In this document: positions 44,317-49,888 of the stretch, in pieces
Numbering within the stretch: the stretch's first letter is position 1
Layout: each line of letters begins with the position of its first letter
NCBI RefSeq assembly: GCF_003002875.1
Contig: NZ_PVTH01000008.1
Span: 62,001-126,000, forward strand
DNA length: 64,000 nucleotides
Source of the DNA: Arcticibacter pallidicorallinus
Lineage (GTDB): Bacteria > Bacteroidota > Bacteroidia > Sphingobacteriales > Sphingobacteriaceae
Direction of reading: 5' to 3'
Notes under the pieces: generated by a model
Told to the model about the DNA's origin: nothing
What the model saw: the letters and a program-made list of their open reading frames with translations, nothing else
Database searches by the model: none
Translations under genes and position numbers: made by a program

Positions 44317-44613
44317 TCAGACATATATCAGGGAACGCTCTACGTACGGTAAATAACTTGGTTTTATTCCTCTTCGCGAAACCATATCAATTTTATGATT
44401 GAAAAGGTCCTCAAACTCCTGAGCCAGGCGGATGTAGTCAAACCCATCTATCCTGCCTTTGAAATCGACAAGAATGTCAATATCGCTATTCTCATTGTTA
44501 TCTCCTCGCGCAAAAGAGCCGAAAAGGCCGAGTTCCGATAGCGGATATTTGGCATACAAAGCCGATTTGTGTTCTTTCAGAATAGCTATAATTTCGTTCT
44601 TTGTATACGACAT
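44317..44613 (-). CDS. Small MNT-type nucleotidyltransferase (MntA-like)
   Basis: Minimal nucleotidyltransferase, 98 residues from ATG 44613. The hallmark GLFGSFARGDNNENSDIDILVDF (about 30-52) gives the GSxARG and DxD metal motif. Known relatives are the antitoxin half of HEPN/MNT toxin-antitoxin pairs, where the MNT protein AMPylates or blocks the HEPN ribonuclease. No HEPN frame was found on either side, so this looks like an orphan or a pair whose partner was lost. The reading frame is intact. It lies beside the broken nuclease and the dyad-rich spacer. Confidence 0.85.
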   Translation of the reverse strand: MSYTKNEIIAILKEHKSALYAKYPLSELGLFGSFARGDNNENSDIDILVDFKGRIDGFDYIRLAQEFEDLFNHKIDMVSRRGIKPSYLPYVERSLIYV

Positions 44614-44693
44614 AATTATTTTCAATTACAACTGTATGCGTTACAAAGTTAGCTAAAGGAACAAACAATTAAAAGGGCCTCCCCTTCTACCCC

Positions 44694-44819: not shown

Positions 44820-45788
44820 TCAACGCGATGAAAACAGAACCCGCTTCCCTATTGGTATGACTGCTTTATCAACACGCTGTTTAACCCCTCTTTCCGGCAC
44901 TTTAGCATTTACCCCCATTCTTCGTTCCTGATCCCGTAGCAGCCTGTTACCTTCGTAACACATGTTGCATATAGACTCTCCCCTTAGTTCCTGCGCCTCT
45001 GTGAGTGTCATATTCACCGGACCCGCAGGATATTCTCCCGGTTCTTCCGCGTGGAAAGCAGCGATAATCGAACATGGACTGAACTCCTTGCTGTTTAGCA
45101 ATACATAGCCTTCTTCCATCCGGGTTTCGCTATAAGCCAGCAGCGACACACTGAGCATCAGCAGCTGATCGGGTTCCGGCAGGGTTTCAAAGCGGATTTC
45201 CCGGGCCTCCAGCTGAGCCTGCCAACGAAACTCCACATCTTTCACTTCCAGATATTCATAGTACTCCTTCCTGAAATTGAAGCCGATCAGGCTGAAACGG
45301 ATCTTGTATTTACTCACCGGTTTACTGATGCTTAGCGGTACCCTCAGGTCGGTTTTGGCGTTCAAAGCTCCCATGAAAACGCTTAGGCGACCCTCTTCAT
45401 CCCGCTCTACCCGCTGACTGACCTGCAGTACTTCGCTCAGCCGGCTCTTCATATTGAAGTCCATCCCGATGAGGCTCTCCAGGTCCGCATCATGCAAGTC
45501 GCGCTGACCAACGCTTCCGCGTAAGCTATTGCGAAGACCCCGGTACACCAGCTGTGTGCTGCGGCTGACCGCCTCGCCATCCCGGTGCACATAGGCCGGC
45601 TCAAAGGCCTGCCTTATCACTGCCGCCGTGGTACTGGAAAGACCGAACTCGGTGGAGGCCTGGATGCTTGCGCTGGTCTGTTCGAATTTGCGGGGTTTCC
45701 CCTGGATGATGTTCAATTCGCGGTAGCCGCGATAGATGACGGAACCTGCCTTGCCGCGAACGATTCCTTTCTTGTCTACTTTTGCCAT
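44820..45788 (-). CDS. Unrecognised 322-residue protein
   Basis: Soluble-looking protein with no signal peptide or membrane segment. The start is ATG 45788 (MAKVDKKGIVRGKAGSVIYR); a 24-codon extension upstream looks non-coding. The N-terminal 50 residues (VRGKAGSVIYRGYRELNIIQ, then GKPRK and a Gln/Ser/Thr-rich stretch) recall the opening of small unclassified Bacteroidota proteins, but I cannot name a family. The middle (about 165-260) is beta-rich with paired charged residues, and a CNMCYEGNRLLRDQERR stretch is near the end. Its codon use looks more G+C-rich than its neighbours, hinting at transfer. It is monocistronic and lies among accessory remnants. Function unknown. Confidence 0.75.
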   Translation of the reverse strand: MAKVDKKGIVRGKAGSVIYRGYRELNIIQGKPRKFEQTSASIQASTEFGLSSTTAAVIRQAFEPAYVHRDGEAVSRSTQLVYRGLRNSLRGSVGQRDLHDADLESLIGMDFNMKSRLSEVLQVSQRVERDEEGRLSVFMGALNAKTDLRVPLSISKPVSKYKIRFSLIGFNFRKEYYEYLEVKDVEFRWQAQLEAREIRFETLPEPDQLLMLSVSLLAYSETRMEEGYVLLNSKEFSPCSIIAAFHAEEPGEYPAGPVNMTLTEAQELRGESICNMCYEGNRLLRDQERRMGVNAKVPERGVKQRVDKAVIPIGKRVLFSSR

Positions 45789-45967
45789 AACCTTGTTTGA
45801 TTTAGAGAACAAGGTAGCGCGGCAGAAAACCTGTGACGATTTTTTTGCCAAAATCGACAAAATTTTATGGAATTTTTAAAAAAACGTACCTCAAAAGCAG
45901 TCAAGCCTCGCTTAGGCTGAGCTTAGTACTTCTTTATATGAAGAGCTATATGTACTGATGAAAGCCA

Positions 45968-46009
45968 GTGATAAGTCCGACCTTAAGTTCATCAGGTCGG
46001 ACTTATCAC
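45968..46009. other. Perfect 16-bp inverted repeat
   Basis: GTGATAAGTCCGACCT pairs exactly with AGGTCGGACTTATCAC around a ten-base loop. It has no U tract on either side. It lies between two divergent units, so it is not an obvious terminator of a known gene; an operator or a structured non-coding transcript is possible. Confidence 0.7.
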
Positions 46010-46119
46010 GGCACAAAGTCTGCACATTATCGCCCGAATACAACCGTGGTTAAAAACCGCCACCTAACAAGGTCCGAAATAAATTGCCCTACCATCTTTT
46101 TATATCTGAAACATTTTAC

Positions 46120-46127
46120 CATATTTG
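46120..46127 (+). promoter_or_regulatory. Candidate -7 box of the trp operon
   Basis: CATATTTG matches TAnnTTTG at seven of eight positions, 10 bases before the leader ATG, giving a nearly leaderless leader-peptide message. An alternative is TATATCTG at 46101-46108, also seven of eight. Neither has a clear -33 TTG at ordinary spacing. Confidence 0.35.
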
Positions 46128-46137
46128 TAATACAGGT

Positions 46138-46191
46138 ATGAAGACAAATACTATACATAAGCTTTGGTGGTGGCAAATCGGTCAATCGTAA
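46138..46191 (+). CDS. trpL: trp operon leader peptide with three consecutive Trp codons
   Basis: An 18-codon frame (ATG 46138, TAA 46189-46191) reads MKTNTIHKLWWWQIGQS. Three tandem UGG codons (46165-46173) are extremely unlikely by chance directly ahead of trpDFBA. It is the classical sensing element of ribosome-mediated attenuation: with scarce charged tRNA-Trp the ribosome stalls at these codons, and with enough it reaches the stop, one base before the antiterminator's left arm. No Shine-Dalgarno is visible, as is normal for the phylum. Confidence 0.9.
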   Translation: MKTNTIHKLWWWQIGQS

Positions 46192-46273
46192 GGGCAAACT
46201 GTATATGTATATTTTTATAAAAAGAAAATAAACAGGGTTGCCCGGCAGGCAACCTTTTTTTTGTCCTGCCGGG
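46192..46273 (+). promoter_or_regulatory. trp attenuator: antiterminator, terminator and downstream pairing segment
   Basis: The terminator is GGTTGCC (46236-46242) pairing with GGCAACC (46248-46254), loop CGGCA, followed by eight T (46255-46262). The antiterminator is GGGCAA (46192-46197) pairing with TTGCCC (46238-46243), with extra ACTG/CAG-type pairs; it uses the same left arm as the terminator, so the two are exclusive. A third segment, CCTGCCGGG (46265-46273), can pair with CCCGGCAGG (46241-46249) and competes with the terminator after read-through. A ribosome at the leader stop would cover the antiterminator's left arm and allow termination; a ribosome stalled at the Trp codons would leave it free. 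The mechanism is inferred from base pairing. Confidence 0.85.
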
Positions 46274-46291
46274 GGACAGAAAAGACAATAA

Positions 46292-47284
46292 ATGAAACAG
46301 ATACTCAACCGCTTATTCGAGCACAAAACGTTTAATTCCCGGGAGGCCAAAGAAATTCTTACCAATATCACCACAGGGAAATATAATTCATCACAAATGG
46401 CTGCCTTTATGACGGCGTATTGTATGAGAAGCATGACTGTCGAGGAGCTGCAAGGCTTCAGAGATGCGATGCTCGACCTCTGCCTGGATCCCCAGCTGGG
46501 GCAATACAAACTGGTTGACCTCTGTGGCACCGGTGGTGATGGTAAAGATACCTTCAACATCTCGACACTGGCATCTTTCGTCGTGGCGGGAGCTGGTTAT
46601 CAAGTCGCCAAACACGGCAATTATGGAGTATCTTCAGGCTGTGGGTCGTCCAACGTCATGGAGTACCTGGGTTGCAAATTCAGCAATGACCCGTCTTTCC
46701 TGCAAAAAAGCGTAGAACAGGCAGGCATCTGTTTCCTCCATGCGCCCCTTTTCCATTCGGCAATGAAGAATGTGGCCCCTATCCGCAAGGAGTTGGGCGT
46801 GAAAACGTTCTTCAATATGCTGGGACCCATGGTTAATCCGGCGAATCCGGCTTATCAGGTGGTAGGTGTATTTAGCCTGGAAATAGCTCGTCTTTATGCA
46901 TACCTGTACCAGAAATCGGATAAACAATATACCATCATTCATGCCCTTGACGGATATGATGAGATCTCGCTGACCGGCAGTTTTAAGACCTTCAGCAACA
47001 GTGGTGAACAAATATATACGCTCGAAAAGATCGGGTTTGAGAAGATTGATGCTGCTGCCATCGGTGGCGGAAGCACGGTTGAAGACTCAGCAAAAATATT
47101 CACAGAAGTGATTAACGGTCGTGGCACGAGGGAACAAAACAATGTGGTGTTGGCGAACGCTGCTCTTGCTATTAAAACCATCTGTCCGGAGAAGTCGTTT
47201 GCCGACAGTTTCTACGAAGCGGAGGAAGCGCTCCTGTCTAAAAAGGCACTCAAAAGCTTTAATACTTTAATTAGCCTGAACTAA
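46292..47284 (+). CDS. trpD: Anthranilate phosphoribosyltransferase
   Basis: Second step of tryptophan synthesis: anthranilate plus PRPP gives phosphoribosylanthranilate. It has 330 residues. The PRPP/metal-binding glycine loop is VDLCGTGGDGKDTFNIST (about 74-91), followed by KHGNYGVSSGCGSSNVMEYLG (about 106-126), which contains the anthranilate site, and the LGPMVNPANP motif. It starts 18 bases after the attenuator's third segment. Its stop overlaps the trpF start (TAATG). It is the first structural gene of a four-gene cluster; trpE and trpG are absent upstream. Confidence 0.97.
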   Translation: MKQILNRLFEHKTFNSREAKEILTNITTGKYNSSQMAAFMTAYCMRSMTVEELQGFRDAMLDLCLDPQLGQYKLVDLCGTGGDGKDTFNISTLASFVVAGAGYQVAKHGNYGVSSGCGSSNVMEYLGCKFSNDPSFLQKSVEQAGICFLHAPLFHSAMKNVAPIRKELGVKTFFNMLGPMVNPANPAYQVVGVFSLEIARLYAYLYQKSDKQYTIIHALDGYDEISLTGSFKTFSNSGEQIYTLEKIGFEKIDAAAIGGGSTVEDSAKIFTEVINGRGTREQNNVVLANAALAIKTICPEKSFADSFYEAEEALLSKKALKSFNTLISLN

Positions 47285-47925
47285 TGGCGGAAAGCGACAA
47301 CATAGCTGCTCGTCCGTTTAAGATTAAAGTCTGCGGAATGAAAGATGCTCACAACATCCCGGAGGTGGCTTCTTTGTCGCCGGATTACCTGGGCTTCATC
47401 TTTTACGCGCCATCGGCAAGGTACGCTGCTGAGGTTGATCCTCAAATCTTGCGGAATCTTCCGGCCGGCATCAAAAAGACGGGGGTGTTTGTAAATGAGG
47501 TAGCTGAACAGATCAAATACTGGGTCGACAAAATGGGCTTGGATGCTGTGCAGCTGCATGGAGCCGAATCGCCTGCCTTTTGCAGGGAGATAGGCCTTCT
47601 GAATGTCGAAACAATTAAAGCTTTCGGAGTAGACGAGCATTTTGACTTCAAGACACTCGACGAATACACCGACAGCGTAGACTATTTCCTTTTTGACACC
47701 AAAACCCCGGCACATGGCGGATCGGGAAAGTTATTCGACTGGAAACTTCTGCAGCAAAACAAAACGACCAAACCGTTCTTCTTAAGCGGGGGGATCGATA
47801 TTCAACATCTGGATGAAATACGGCAGATCGACGACAGCCGTTTATATGCTATAGATGTGAACAGCCGGTTTGAAATATCCCCCGGAATGAAGGACTACAA
47901 AAAATTAGAAGCGATATTTAAATAG
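47284..47925 (+). CDS. trpF: Phosphoribosylanthranilate isomerase
   Basis: Third step of the pathway: Amadori rearrangement of phosphoribosylanthranilate to the carboxyphenylaminodeoxyribulose phosphate (CdRP). It is a TIM-barrel enzyme of 213 residues. The catalytic Cys is in [13 protein letters not shown] (about 12-24) and the catalytic Asp in [17 protein letters not shown]. The phosphate-binding end has FFLSGGID and VNSRFE. It overlaps trpD by one base and is followed by trpB after five bases. The trpC gene, needed for the next step, is not in this cluster. Confidence 0.95.
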
Positions 47926-47930
47926 ACATT

Positions 47931-49112
47931 ATGAGCTATCAAGTAAATGAAAAAGGTTATTACGGCGTATTTGGCGGAGCTTACATCCCCGAAATGCTGT
48001 ATCCGAATGTCAAGGAACTGAGAGAAAAATATCTGGAATATATTCAGGACCCTAAATTTCAGGAGGAATATCTGCAGTTGTTGAAAGACTATGTAGGACG
48101 CCCTTCTCCGCTTTATCTGGCAGAGCGTCTGTCGGCTAAATACGGTGCGAAAATATACCTGAAACGCGAAGACCTGAACCATACCGGTGCCCATAAGATC
48201 AATAATACGGTAGGTCAGATCCTTTTGGCGGAACGCCTGGGTAAAAAGCGTATCATTGCTGAAACCGGGGCGGGCCAGCATGGTGTGGCGACGGCTACGG
48301 TATGTGCGCTGAAAGGTCTGGAGTGCATCGTTTACATGGGTGCGGTCGACATCGAGCGTCAGGCTCCTAACGTGGCACGTATGAAGATGATGGGTGCTAC
48401 GGTGATCCCGGCAACTTCGGGAAGCCAGACATTGAAAGATGCTACGAATGAGGCTTTGCGCGACTGGATCAACAATCCTACGGATACGCACTATATCATC
48501 GGATCTGTGGTAGGTCCTCATCCTTACCCGGATATGGTGGCTCGTTTTCAGTCGATCATCTCCGAAGAAACGAAATGGCAGCTGCTGGAGAAGACGGGAA
48601 CATCGAGTCCGGATTACGTTCTGGCCTGCGTAGGCGGAGGCAGCAATGCGATGGGGATGTTCTACCATTTTCTGGACGATGAGCACGCCAAGCTGATCGC
48701 TATAGAAGCTGCCGGAAAGGGAGTTAACACCGGTGAGTCTGCTGCAACGACTTTGCTTGGAAAAGAAGGGGTGCTTCACGGAAGCCGCTCTATCGTGATG
48801 CAGACAGAAGACGGACAAGTAGTTGAGCCTTACTCGATTTCTGCCGGCCTGGATTATCCGGGTATCGGGCCTCAGCATGCTCACCTTCACACGTCTAAGC
48901 GTGCGCTTTATGTGAGCATCACGGATGATGAGGCTATGCAGGCTGGTTTGGAACTGGCTAAGCTGGAAGGCATTATTCCGGCTATCGAAAGCTCGCATGC
49001 GCTGGCCTACCTTTCTAAAATGGAATTTAAAGGCGATGAGACGGTTGTGGTTTGCCTGTCGGGCAGAGGCGACAAGGATCTGAGTACATATATGACCTAT
49101 TTCGGACTATAA
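47931..49112 (+). CDS. trpB: Tryptophan synthase beta subunit
   Basis: Last catalytic step: indole plus serine gives tryptophan. PLP enzyme of 393 residues. The Schiff-base Lys is in [15 protein letters not shown] (about 82-96), the phosphate loop is [12 protein letters not shown], and the ligand loop [11 protein letters not shown] is intact. The C-terminal SGRGDKD motif is present. The stop overlaps the trpA start (TAATG), consistent with assembly of the alpha2-beta2 complex from one message. Confidence 0.98.
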
Positions 49113-49888
49113 TGAATAGAATAAACAAGCTTTTTGAACAAAAGAACAAATCGGTACTATCTATATATTTCACGGCGGGTTATCCTGCCTTAAATGACAC
49201 GCTTGATATTGCTGAGGCTTTGGAAAAGGCGGGAGCTGACTTCCTCGAGATAGGTATCCCCTACTCAGATCCTCTGGCAGACGGCCCGGTGATTCAAAAC
49301 AGTTCGTTAACTTCCATCAGTAACGGAATGACCATTAAGGTATTGCTGGAGCAGCTTAAAGATCTGCGCAAGCGGGTAAGCATTCCGGTGTTTCTGATGG
49401 GTTATTTTAACCCGGTGTTACAATACGGGGTCGAGCGTTTCTGTGAAGCCTGCTCCGAGGTGGGTGTTGACGGAATGATCATCCCCGATCTGCCGATGTA
49501 TGAATACGAAGAGCTTTATCAGGACTGCTTTAAGAAGCATAACTTGAGCAACGTCTTCCTGATAACCCCGCAAACTTCTGACGAGCGGATTCGCCATATT
49601 GATGAGCTGACCAATGGGTTTATTTACTTACTGTCATCTGCTTCAACAACGGGCAAGAACCTCGATCTGTCTTTAAAGACAGATGAATACTTCAGCAGGA
49701 TCAAAAATATGAACCTGAAGAATCCGGCCATTGTTGGCTTCGGTATCTCGGATCATGCGAGCTTTAGCAAAGCGAGTGAGTACGCTCACGGTGCAATTGT
49801 TGGGACAGCGTTTGTAAAGCTCCTTGCCACAGAAAATTACCAGGAAAAAATCCCGGCATTCATTCAGTCACTGAAGAACCCTGCCTGA
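49112..49888 (+). CDS. trpA: Tryptophan synthase alpha subunit
   Basis: Splits indole-3-glycerol phosphate into indole and glyceraldehyde 3-phosphate and passes indole to TrpB. TIM barrel of 258 residues. The start is ATG 49112 ([20 protein letters not shown]), which overlaps the trpB stop; an upstream in-frame ATG at 49052 would lie inside trpB and is rejected. The catalytic Glu is in FLEIGIPYSDPLADGP and the catalytic Asp in DGMIIPDLP; the phosphate-binding part contains GFGISDHASF. Last gene of the operon, followed by a hairpin. Confidence 0.97.
   Translation: MNRINKLFEQKNKSVLSIYFTAGYPALNDTLDIAEALEKAGADFLEIGIPYSDPLADGPVIQNSSLTSISNGMTIKVLLEQLKDLRKRVSIPVFLMGYFNPVLQYGVERFCEACSEVGVDGMIIPDLPMYEYEELYQDCFKKHNLSNVFLITPQTSDERIRHIDELTNGFIYLLSSASTTGKNLDLSLKTDEYFSRIKNMNLKNPAIVGFGISDHASFSKASEYAHGAIVGTAFVKLLATENYQEKIPAFIQSLKNPA

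Follow-up and report, generated by a model that had tools for sequence, protein, structure and literature searches.

What controls the four tryptophan biosynthesis genes found in this stretch of the Arcticibacter pallidicorallinus genome? The window, that is, the whole stretch of 64,000 nucleotides analysed here, belongs to a 4.1-Mb genome assembled in 23 contigs (100% complete according to the tool's estimate), in which the plasmid search gave no match. The genes located 3′ of the region under study participate in the synthesis of tryptophan and have the order trpD-trpF-trpB-trpA (Table 1; the start codon of trpA is our choice). Judged by TrpD, the closest named relatives are a Sphingobacteriales MAG, Pararcticibacter, Pelobium, Mucilaginibacter, and Pedobacter, and Sphingobacteriaceae was accordingly taken as the family for comparison. 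The initial annotation, made from the sequence alone, proposed a complete ribosome-mediated trp attenuator in front of trpD. Our analysis indicates that trpD is very probably preceded by a tryptophan transcription attenuator of this type.

Table 1. Features of the trpD leader region and of the genes behind it; positions are those of the window.
Feature	Position	Strand	Basis
Bacteroidota-type -7 promoter element CATATTTG	46120..46127	+	TTTG near leader ATG across the family
Leader peptide frame MKTNTIHKLWWWQIGQS, 17 codons and TAA	46138..46191	+	Read from sequence (ATG 46138-46140, TAA 46189-46191)
Three tandem UGG (Trp) codons, putative sensing site	46165..46173	+	Sequence and alignment of trpD leaders
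Predicted leader hairpin, segments 1:2	46137..46219	+	Minimum-energy fold
Candidate antiterminator left arm (segment 2), GGGCAAACU	46192..46200	+	Sequence, swap test, shuffles, column counts
Segment 3, antiterminator right arm and terminator left arm, AGGGUUGCCC	46234..46243	+	Sequence, swap test, covariation
Intrinsic terminator (segments 3:4) with T8 tail	46234..46262	+	Sequence, covariation
trpD, anthranilate phosphoribosyltransferase	46292..47284	+	TIGR01245, 301 bits (cut-off 199)
trpF, phosphoribosylanthranilate isomerase	47284..47925	+	NCBIfam PRK01222-type models, best 161.5 bits, under their curated cut-offs
trpB, tryptophan synthase beta	47931..49112	+	TIGR00263, 593.6 bits
trpA, tryptophan synthase alpha	49106..49888	+	TIGR00262, 233.9 bits

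The region contains the features by which the trpL-type class is defined in sequence, namely a leader frame with tandem Trp codons, an intrinsic terminator, and an antiterminator that is exclusive with the terminator. The 1:2 hairpin that hides the antiterminator arm was found as well, in silico. The 17-residue leader, its three UGG codons, the complementary segments GGGCAA (46192-46197) and TTGCCC (46238-46243), the 7-bp terminator and its eight T (46255-46262) were all located as first described. The single base placed between the leader stop and the left arm of the antiterminator has to be removed from that description, as the stop directly adjoins GGGCAA. The terminator stem GGTTGCC/GGCAACC pairs 46236-46242 with 46248-46254 and can reach up to nine pairs (46234-46256). 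A longer antiterminator can also be drawn, in which GGGC-A-AACU (46192-46200) pairs with GGUU-GCCC (46236-46243).

The minimum-energy fold of 46133-46262 consists of the terminator and the long leader hairpin. With -32.1 kcal/mol, it is more stable than 199 out of 200 shuffles (z -2.92). Within the leader hairpin GCUUU (46161-46165) pairs with AGGGC (46191-46195), which sequesters the antiterminator arm. For the window alone, the antiterminator pairing has an energy of -12.4, while its shuffles average -9.1, and the difference is not significant (p 0.13); the significance of the antiterminator therefore comes from the comparison within the family, and not from the window sequence alone. Similarly, TGGTGGTGG at 46165-46173 is the sole occurrence in the 64-kb window, with a chance expectation of 0.31, so it is not rare by itself. 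These two values would also suit an ordinary terminator next to a Trp-rich frame, combined by chance or left as a relic that no longer regulates in this strain, and in the genomes of the related strains G002 and G044 trpD is still preceded by a terminator-like hairpin, but not by a Trp frame. Against this stands that all parts are intact here and that the same set, at nearly fixed spacing, is present in 94 out of 105 loci of the family. We therefore consider a chance or relic origin highly improbable, and a functional attenuator is the reading followed below.

The family comparison was based on 121 Sphingobacteriaceae genomes, with a trpD match in 106 and a trpE match in 106. Stretches upstream of 105 trpD and 106 trpE loci were used; genome G032 was omitted from the trpD count, since its match covers 53 residues only, and G015, with a contig end 183 nt upstream of trpD, was counted as a miss. 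As Trp leader we counted frames of ≤45 codons starting with ATG, with at least two consecutive TGG, within 600 nt of the gene. Such frames were found upstream of trpD in 94 out of 105 loci, from 18 genera, and upstream of trpE in 84 out of 106 loci. Both leaders are present in 78 of the 105 genomes having both loci examined. The reverse-strand control gave one frame for 105 trpD loci and none for 106 trpE loci, and mononucleotide shuffles gave 55 out of 4220. Some trpE loci possess a second, probably chance, TGGTGG frame, and there the frame closest to trpE was used.

A looser reading, for which no control was run, accepts W-x-W leaders and adds five trpD loci and 14 trpE loci, 13 of the latter corresponding to one whole genus. 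The misses before trpD are mostly variant or incomplete leaders, including these five W-x-W frames, the TTG start of the leader in G074 and the contig end in G015. No Trp leader was found in G002, G027, G044, and G008, whose sequence upstream of trpD is usable. The terminator-like hairpins of G002 (L169) and G044 (L168) lie just 5′ of trpD and are perhaps attenuators without their former leader. The genus of these two strains also has frames before trpE that resemble leaders and contain one or two Trp codons in scattered positions. In genus g14, the trpE leaders carry W-x-W (WLW, WQW, WHW) in 13 out of 13 genomes, and the trpD leaders there keep WWW.

Alignments were built from 41 of the 94 trpD leaders and 33 of the 84 trpE leaders, taking at most three per genus, with a terminator under -8 kcal/mol and a span of ≤185 nt. 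The UGG run belongs to the most conserved columns of the trpD alignment. The leader of the window had been called unusually compact, which the lengths do not bear out; its aligned span of 142 nt falls inside the range of 131-154 nt of the 41 rows, which include the window itself and leave out rows above 185 nt.

TRAP, TrpR, and T-box elements control trp operons in other bacteria, and by analogy a tryptophan-binding protein acting in trans, possibly an unknown one, or a T-box could set the fold here, the leader frame being incidental. The host genome contains no match to TrpR (PF01371) or TRAP (PF02081) at E 0.1, and neither a T-box nor Trp_leader is among the 13 Rfam matches (E≤10) in 46000-46400. 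The conservation of the UGG run is also at odds with an incidental frame. The chance that such a factor decides the fold is accordingly very small, and the absence of both protein matches agrees with the earlier proposal of a regulation without TRAP or TrpR. Ribosome-mediated attenuation remains the preferred reading.

A terminator was found in 90 out of 94 trpD leaders and in 75 out of 84 trpE leaders. The swap, shuffle, spacing and folding tests used leaders that have a terminator under -4 kcal/mol and a sufficiently long spacer, and the swap test was further limited to distinct leaders. Terminator stems show compensatory changes, with 23 cells altered on both sides against 5.9 in shuffled alignments for trpD, and 27 against 5.2 for trpE. 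The arms of the antiterminator prefer their own partner in both sets: the mean centred advantage is 0.48 kcal/mol for trpD (p 0.0048, 89 distinct leaders) and 2.1 kcal/mol for trpE (0 out of 5000 permutations, 73 distinct leaders). When the swap test was restricted to one leader per genus (18 and 14 genera), the median p was 0 out of 200 permutations for trpD as well as for trpE. Compared with dinucleotide shuffles of the region that holds the left arm, the antiterminator reached p≤0.05 in 54 out of 90 trpD leaders and 50 out of 75 trpE leaders.

The columns of the trpD antiterminator are paired in 80.7% of the cells, against 79.6% in shuffled and at most 56.0% in slid controls. Covariation is weak in these columns, with six both-side changes against 2.6 shuffled (8 out of 500 shuffles reach this value) and 5 to 14 in slid controls. 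It is stronger in the trpE antiterminator, with 16 both-side changes against 6.5 shuffled (0 out of 500) and 3 to 10 in slid controls. The initial annotation had named conservation of the Trp codons and compensatory changes in relatives as a check. UGG runs and terminators are kept in 18 genera and the terminators change in a compensatory way, whereas column covariation of the trpD antiterminator is weak. Taken together, the UGG runs, the terminators, the arm preference and the fixed spacing described below support the attenuation reading.

The family also provides evidence for the leader hairpin. Without their terminator, trpD leaders have a mean z of -2.49 against shuffles, and 70 out of 90 are at z≤-1.645. 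The signal is modest for trpE leaders (mean z -1.43; 27 out of 75 at ≤-1.645). In minimum-energy folds, for which no shuffle control was made, 84 out of 90 trpD and 72 out of 75 trpE leaders have their left arm paired with upstream sequence. RNAalifold on the trpD alignment recovered the terminator and no other helix, so that the 1:2 hairpin is predicted from single-sequence folds.

The distance between the first Trp codon and the left arm is nearly fixed. In trpD leaders, the median is 25 nt (IQR 23-27, sd 2.9, n=90; 23 nt in the window), and in trpE leaders it is 21 nt (IQR 20-22, sd 2.4, n=75). After base-wise shuffling of the stretch from the Trp run to the terminator, the sd increased to 14.8 and 18.4, respectively. 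The same holds for genus medians, with an sd of 2.4 (trpD) and 1.9 (trpE) observed against 11.1 and 11.9 shuffled. The distance of the left arm to the leader stop is looser (sd 8.2 in trpD and 12.2 in trpE leaders). In toeprinting, the edge of the ribosome lies about 12 nt beyond the first base of the A-site codon. With this footprint, a ribosome stalled on any of the three UGG codons would spare the left arm, and one at the stop codon (46189) would cover it. The geometry between Trp codon and arm thus matches the needs of the mechanism, and we regard it as the strongest evidence for it.

The spacing also bears on a different use of the leader peptide. TnaC is a leader peptide that senses free tryptophan inside the ribosome tunnel, and the leader described here is likewise short and rich in Trp, with last residues partly conserved within genera (NNNWWWLNE in genus g15). 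If it worked as TnaC does and not by codon-paced stalling, free tryptophan would induce genes that make tryptophan, which is the wrong sign. Furthermore, the residues flanking the Trp run vary between genera, W-x-W variants exist, and what is constrained is how far an RNA arm lies from the first Trp codon. Sensing in the tunnel is therefore very unlikely, if marginally less so than the two alternatives discussed above, and codon-paced stalling is retained.

Upstream of the leader frame, the position of the promoter box is conserved. TTTG is found at ≤20 nt from the leader ATG in 87 out of 94 trpD leaders and 81 out of 84 trpE leaders, against 13 out of 94 and 15 out of 84 in control windows further upstream, and before trpD it is usually preceded by CATA. 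In Flavobacterium johnsoniae, promoters with 4 or 5 nt from the -7 element to the start were deemed probable (PMC6847099, in part), and the promoter box of F. psychrophilum spans -12 to -5 (PMC9723704, in part). From the -7 element and the spacing of F. johnsoniae, transcription of the trpD leader would start at about 46132. This predicts a 5′ UTR of about 5-6 nt for the trpD leader of the window, and of about 0 nt for the trpE leader of the same genome. A predicted 5′ UTR of at most about 10 nt was obtained for 81 out of 94 trpD leaders and 79 out of 84 trpE leaders (160 out of 178). Most published 5′ UTRs of the phylum are longer than this. They have a median of 24 nt in F. psychrophilum (PMC9723704, in part) and of 32 nt in Bacteroides thetaiotaomicron, with about 3.7% under 10 nt (PMC7366714, in part), and 87% of the predicted transcripts of F. 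johnsoniae have a 5′ UTR of more than 10 nt (PMC6847099, in part). Outside the family, some loci have 4-12 nt from TTTG to ATG, and others have 15-30 nt. Given these wide gaps, the near-leaderless arrangement is not universal in the phylum.

The proposed mechanism can be described as follows. The polymerase would start at about 46132, and a ribosome would load almost at the 5′ end and read the 17-codon leader. With ample charged tRNA-Trp, the ribosome would pass the three UGG codons and reach the stop, where it would cover the left arm of the antiterminator. Once the ribosome has left, the 1:2 hairpin would take over the masking of this arm. As long as the arm is masked, the terminator would form and transcription would end before trpD. 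With scarce charged tRNA-Trp, the ribosome would stall at the UGG codons and open the 1:2 hairpin, which would free the left arm for pairing with 46236-46243. This pairing would block the terminator, and trpD-F-B-A would be transcribed.

The enterobacterial trpL attenuator (Rfam Trp_leader) combines Trp codons with mutually exclusive 1:2, 2:3, and 3:4 hairpins, and the window leader follows the same logic. Unlike trpL, it has three Trp codons, a very short predicted 5′ UTR (about 5-6 nt), a Bacteroidota-type promoter and a genome without TrpR match. It had been presented as an example outside the Proteobacteria, but it is not a lone exotic case, since Rfam already holds this kind of element for Bacteroidetes. 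RF01692 (Bacteroid-trp) is the Bacteroidete tryptophan peptide leader RNA, listed as a likely cis-regulatory RNA in Table 1 of Weinberg et al. 2010 (PMC2864571, in part). A 2019 paper places an RF01692 element 5′ of the F. psychrophilum trp operon (PMC6414381, in part), and a 2021 paper speaks of strong clues of leader-peptide attenuation before amino-acid operons of this species. The 2010 attenuation survey of Lopatovskaya et al., cited in PMC4833913 (in part), may cover such cases.

The window matches RF01692 at 46118-46242 with 37.9 bits (E 0.0059 in 401 bases), which is under the cut-off of 49. In the whole genome, the trpD leader site is the best match of the RF01692 model (E 0.014). The second to fourth matches (31.9, 23.0, and 22.3 bits) have no Trp run in the 160 nt read. 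None out of 20 sources scanned from the family reached the RF01692 cut-off, and 15 out of 198 sampled genomes of the phylum passed it. We fetched the 20 best RF01692 loci. Nineteen of them lie outside the family and all of these precede trpE (15 above and four below the cut-off); the remaining one is the trpD leader of a member of Sphingobacteriaceae. STnc70 and isrD also matched at the site with 24 bits, and were rejected, as they are under their cut-offs and align mostly on the terminator hairpin.

A covariance model (R1) was built from the 41 aligned trpD leaders. As its 3′ third also matches bare terminators on both strands, only full-length matches were counted. R1 matched 19 out of 19 RF01692-type trpE leaders in full length, with 42.9-74.0 bits and rough E values of 2.3e-7 to 1.6e-14. 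It also matched 23 out of 23 tested trpE loci of the family, including the copy of this genome, with 18.0-55.8 bits. In 38 of the 198 phylum genomes the best full-length match had E ≤ 3.3e-6; these matches were not checked singly. Judged by these matches, the trpD leaders are homologous to RF01692 yet outside its current threshold. Both share the same anatomy and the position 5′ of trp genes. However, the window leader precedes trpD of a split operon, whereas RF01692-type loci in other families precede trpE, and the terminator arms of Sphingobacteriaceae differ from the AGGCUUGUC type in most genera.

In this genome, trpEGC and trpDFBA are separate halves of a split trp operon, and each of them has a Trp leader. 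The trpE gene is located on another contig (TIGR00564, 426.6 bits, under the curated cut-off of 517.7). It is followed by trpG and trpC, which were assigned by inspection and from where they match in other trp operons, at the expected places. Before trpE-trpG-trpC, a second Trp leader MLNNKYTQNWWWHESVHRSVVCL with its own terminator was found (G000:C3:309926-310076; about 1927-2077 of L193). This diverged attenuator would exert the same control on trpE-trpG-trpC, so that both operon halves would answer one signal. For the 105 trpD genes of the family, a search with tblastn (E 1e-5) in the 700 nt upstream (183 nt in G015) found no trpG, trpC or trpE.

Similar to the trpD leader of the window, the trpE leaders of the family comprise a Trp leader frame, a terminator, an antiterminator, and a -7 box beside the ATG. 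They differ in the arm sequences, which in most genera are CCCGRCG before trpE and GGGUUGC before trpD. The antiterminator arm of trpE leaders is also placed inside the leader frame, at a median of 22 nt before the end of the stop codon. With the trpD-leader model, the trpE leader of this genome scores 32.8 bits and ranks second in the genome. One of the 28 extra matches of this model (E≤10) corresponds to the other strand of the terminator of the window. Six of the 28, from four loci, were read for a further Trp leader, and showed terminator-like hairpins without Trp frame. A loose pattern search in 31 genomes gave dozens of matches per genome, and the reversed-pattern control was of similar order in most.

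Outside the family, a Trp leader precedes trpE in 21 out of 21 named loci examined that have trpE, trpG, and trpD together. These loci belong to Algoriphagus, Flavobacteriaceae, Dyadobacter and others; they are 21 of 23 named loci, of which the other two were left out for a contig end at trpE or close to it. Compared with the trpE copy, the trpD copy looks closer to the leaders of intact operons. This suggests that trpE, trpG, and trpC departed from an ancestral operon and that trpDFBA retained the leader. For a wider reading, the chances are evenly balanced: Sphingobacteriaceae would have split an ancestral operon and kept its halves joined by two separately evolving attenuators with leader frames at or near the 5′ end. 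Tryptophan would be sensed via near-leaderless, coupled translation in a phylum without Shine-Dalgarno sequences, and the trpD copy would be the closer heir of the intact-operon leader.

The kind of switch is already known, and the leader of the window is a clear and widely conserved example of it. Beyond the initial annotation, the analysis adds the split operon with its second Trp leader, the predicted hairpin that hides the arm, and the promoter box close to the ATG. Three points are new with respect to the literature searched: the occurrence of twin attenuators on a split operon throughout the family, the rule measured for the spacing, and the leader frames predicted to be near-leaderless. 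That literature, which includes few subscription papers, contained no study of Sphingobacteriaceae that deals with trp attenuation, and none that describes a split trp operon with paired attenuators. The twin leaders illustrate how a split operon can remain under one signal. Moreover, the present RF01692 model of Rfam misses the leaders of Sphingobacteriaceae.

Ribosome-mediated attenuation requires a ribosome close behind the polymerase. The family-wide spacing of about 21-25 nt between Trp codon and arm can be taken as genomic evidence for coupling of transcription and translation in Bacteroidota, and no direct test of such coupling in this phylum was found in the literature searched. The predicted near-leaderless leader frames are unusual and may serve as a simple system in which to test how translation begins when Shine-Dalgarno sequences are lacking.

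The neighbourhood of the operon shows some further features. The divergent neighbour of trpDFBA (44820-45860, minus strand) encodes a protein (about 320-346 residues) that matched neither NCBIfam nor Pfam models at E 0.001. A small nucleotidyltransferase (Pfam NTP_transf_2) is encoded at 44317-44625 on the minus strand and has a weak likeness to MntA-type antitoxins (44.7 bits, under the NCBIfam cut-off of 60). Between the divergent gene and the trp promoter lies a perfect inverted repeat (45968-46009; arms of 16 bp, loop of 10 nt), which is not followed by a T run and occurs once in the window.
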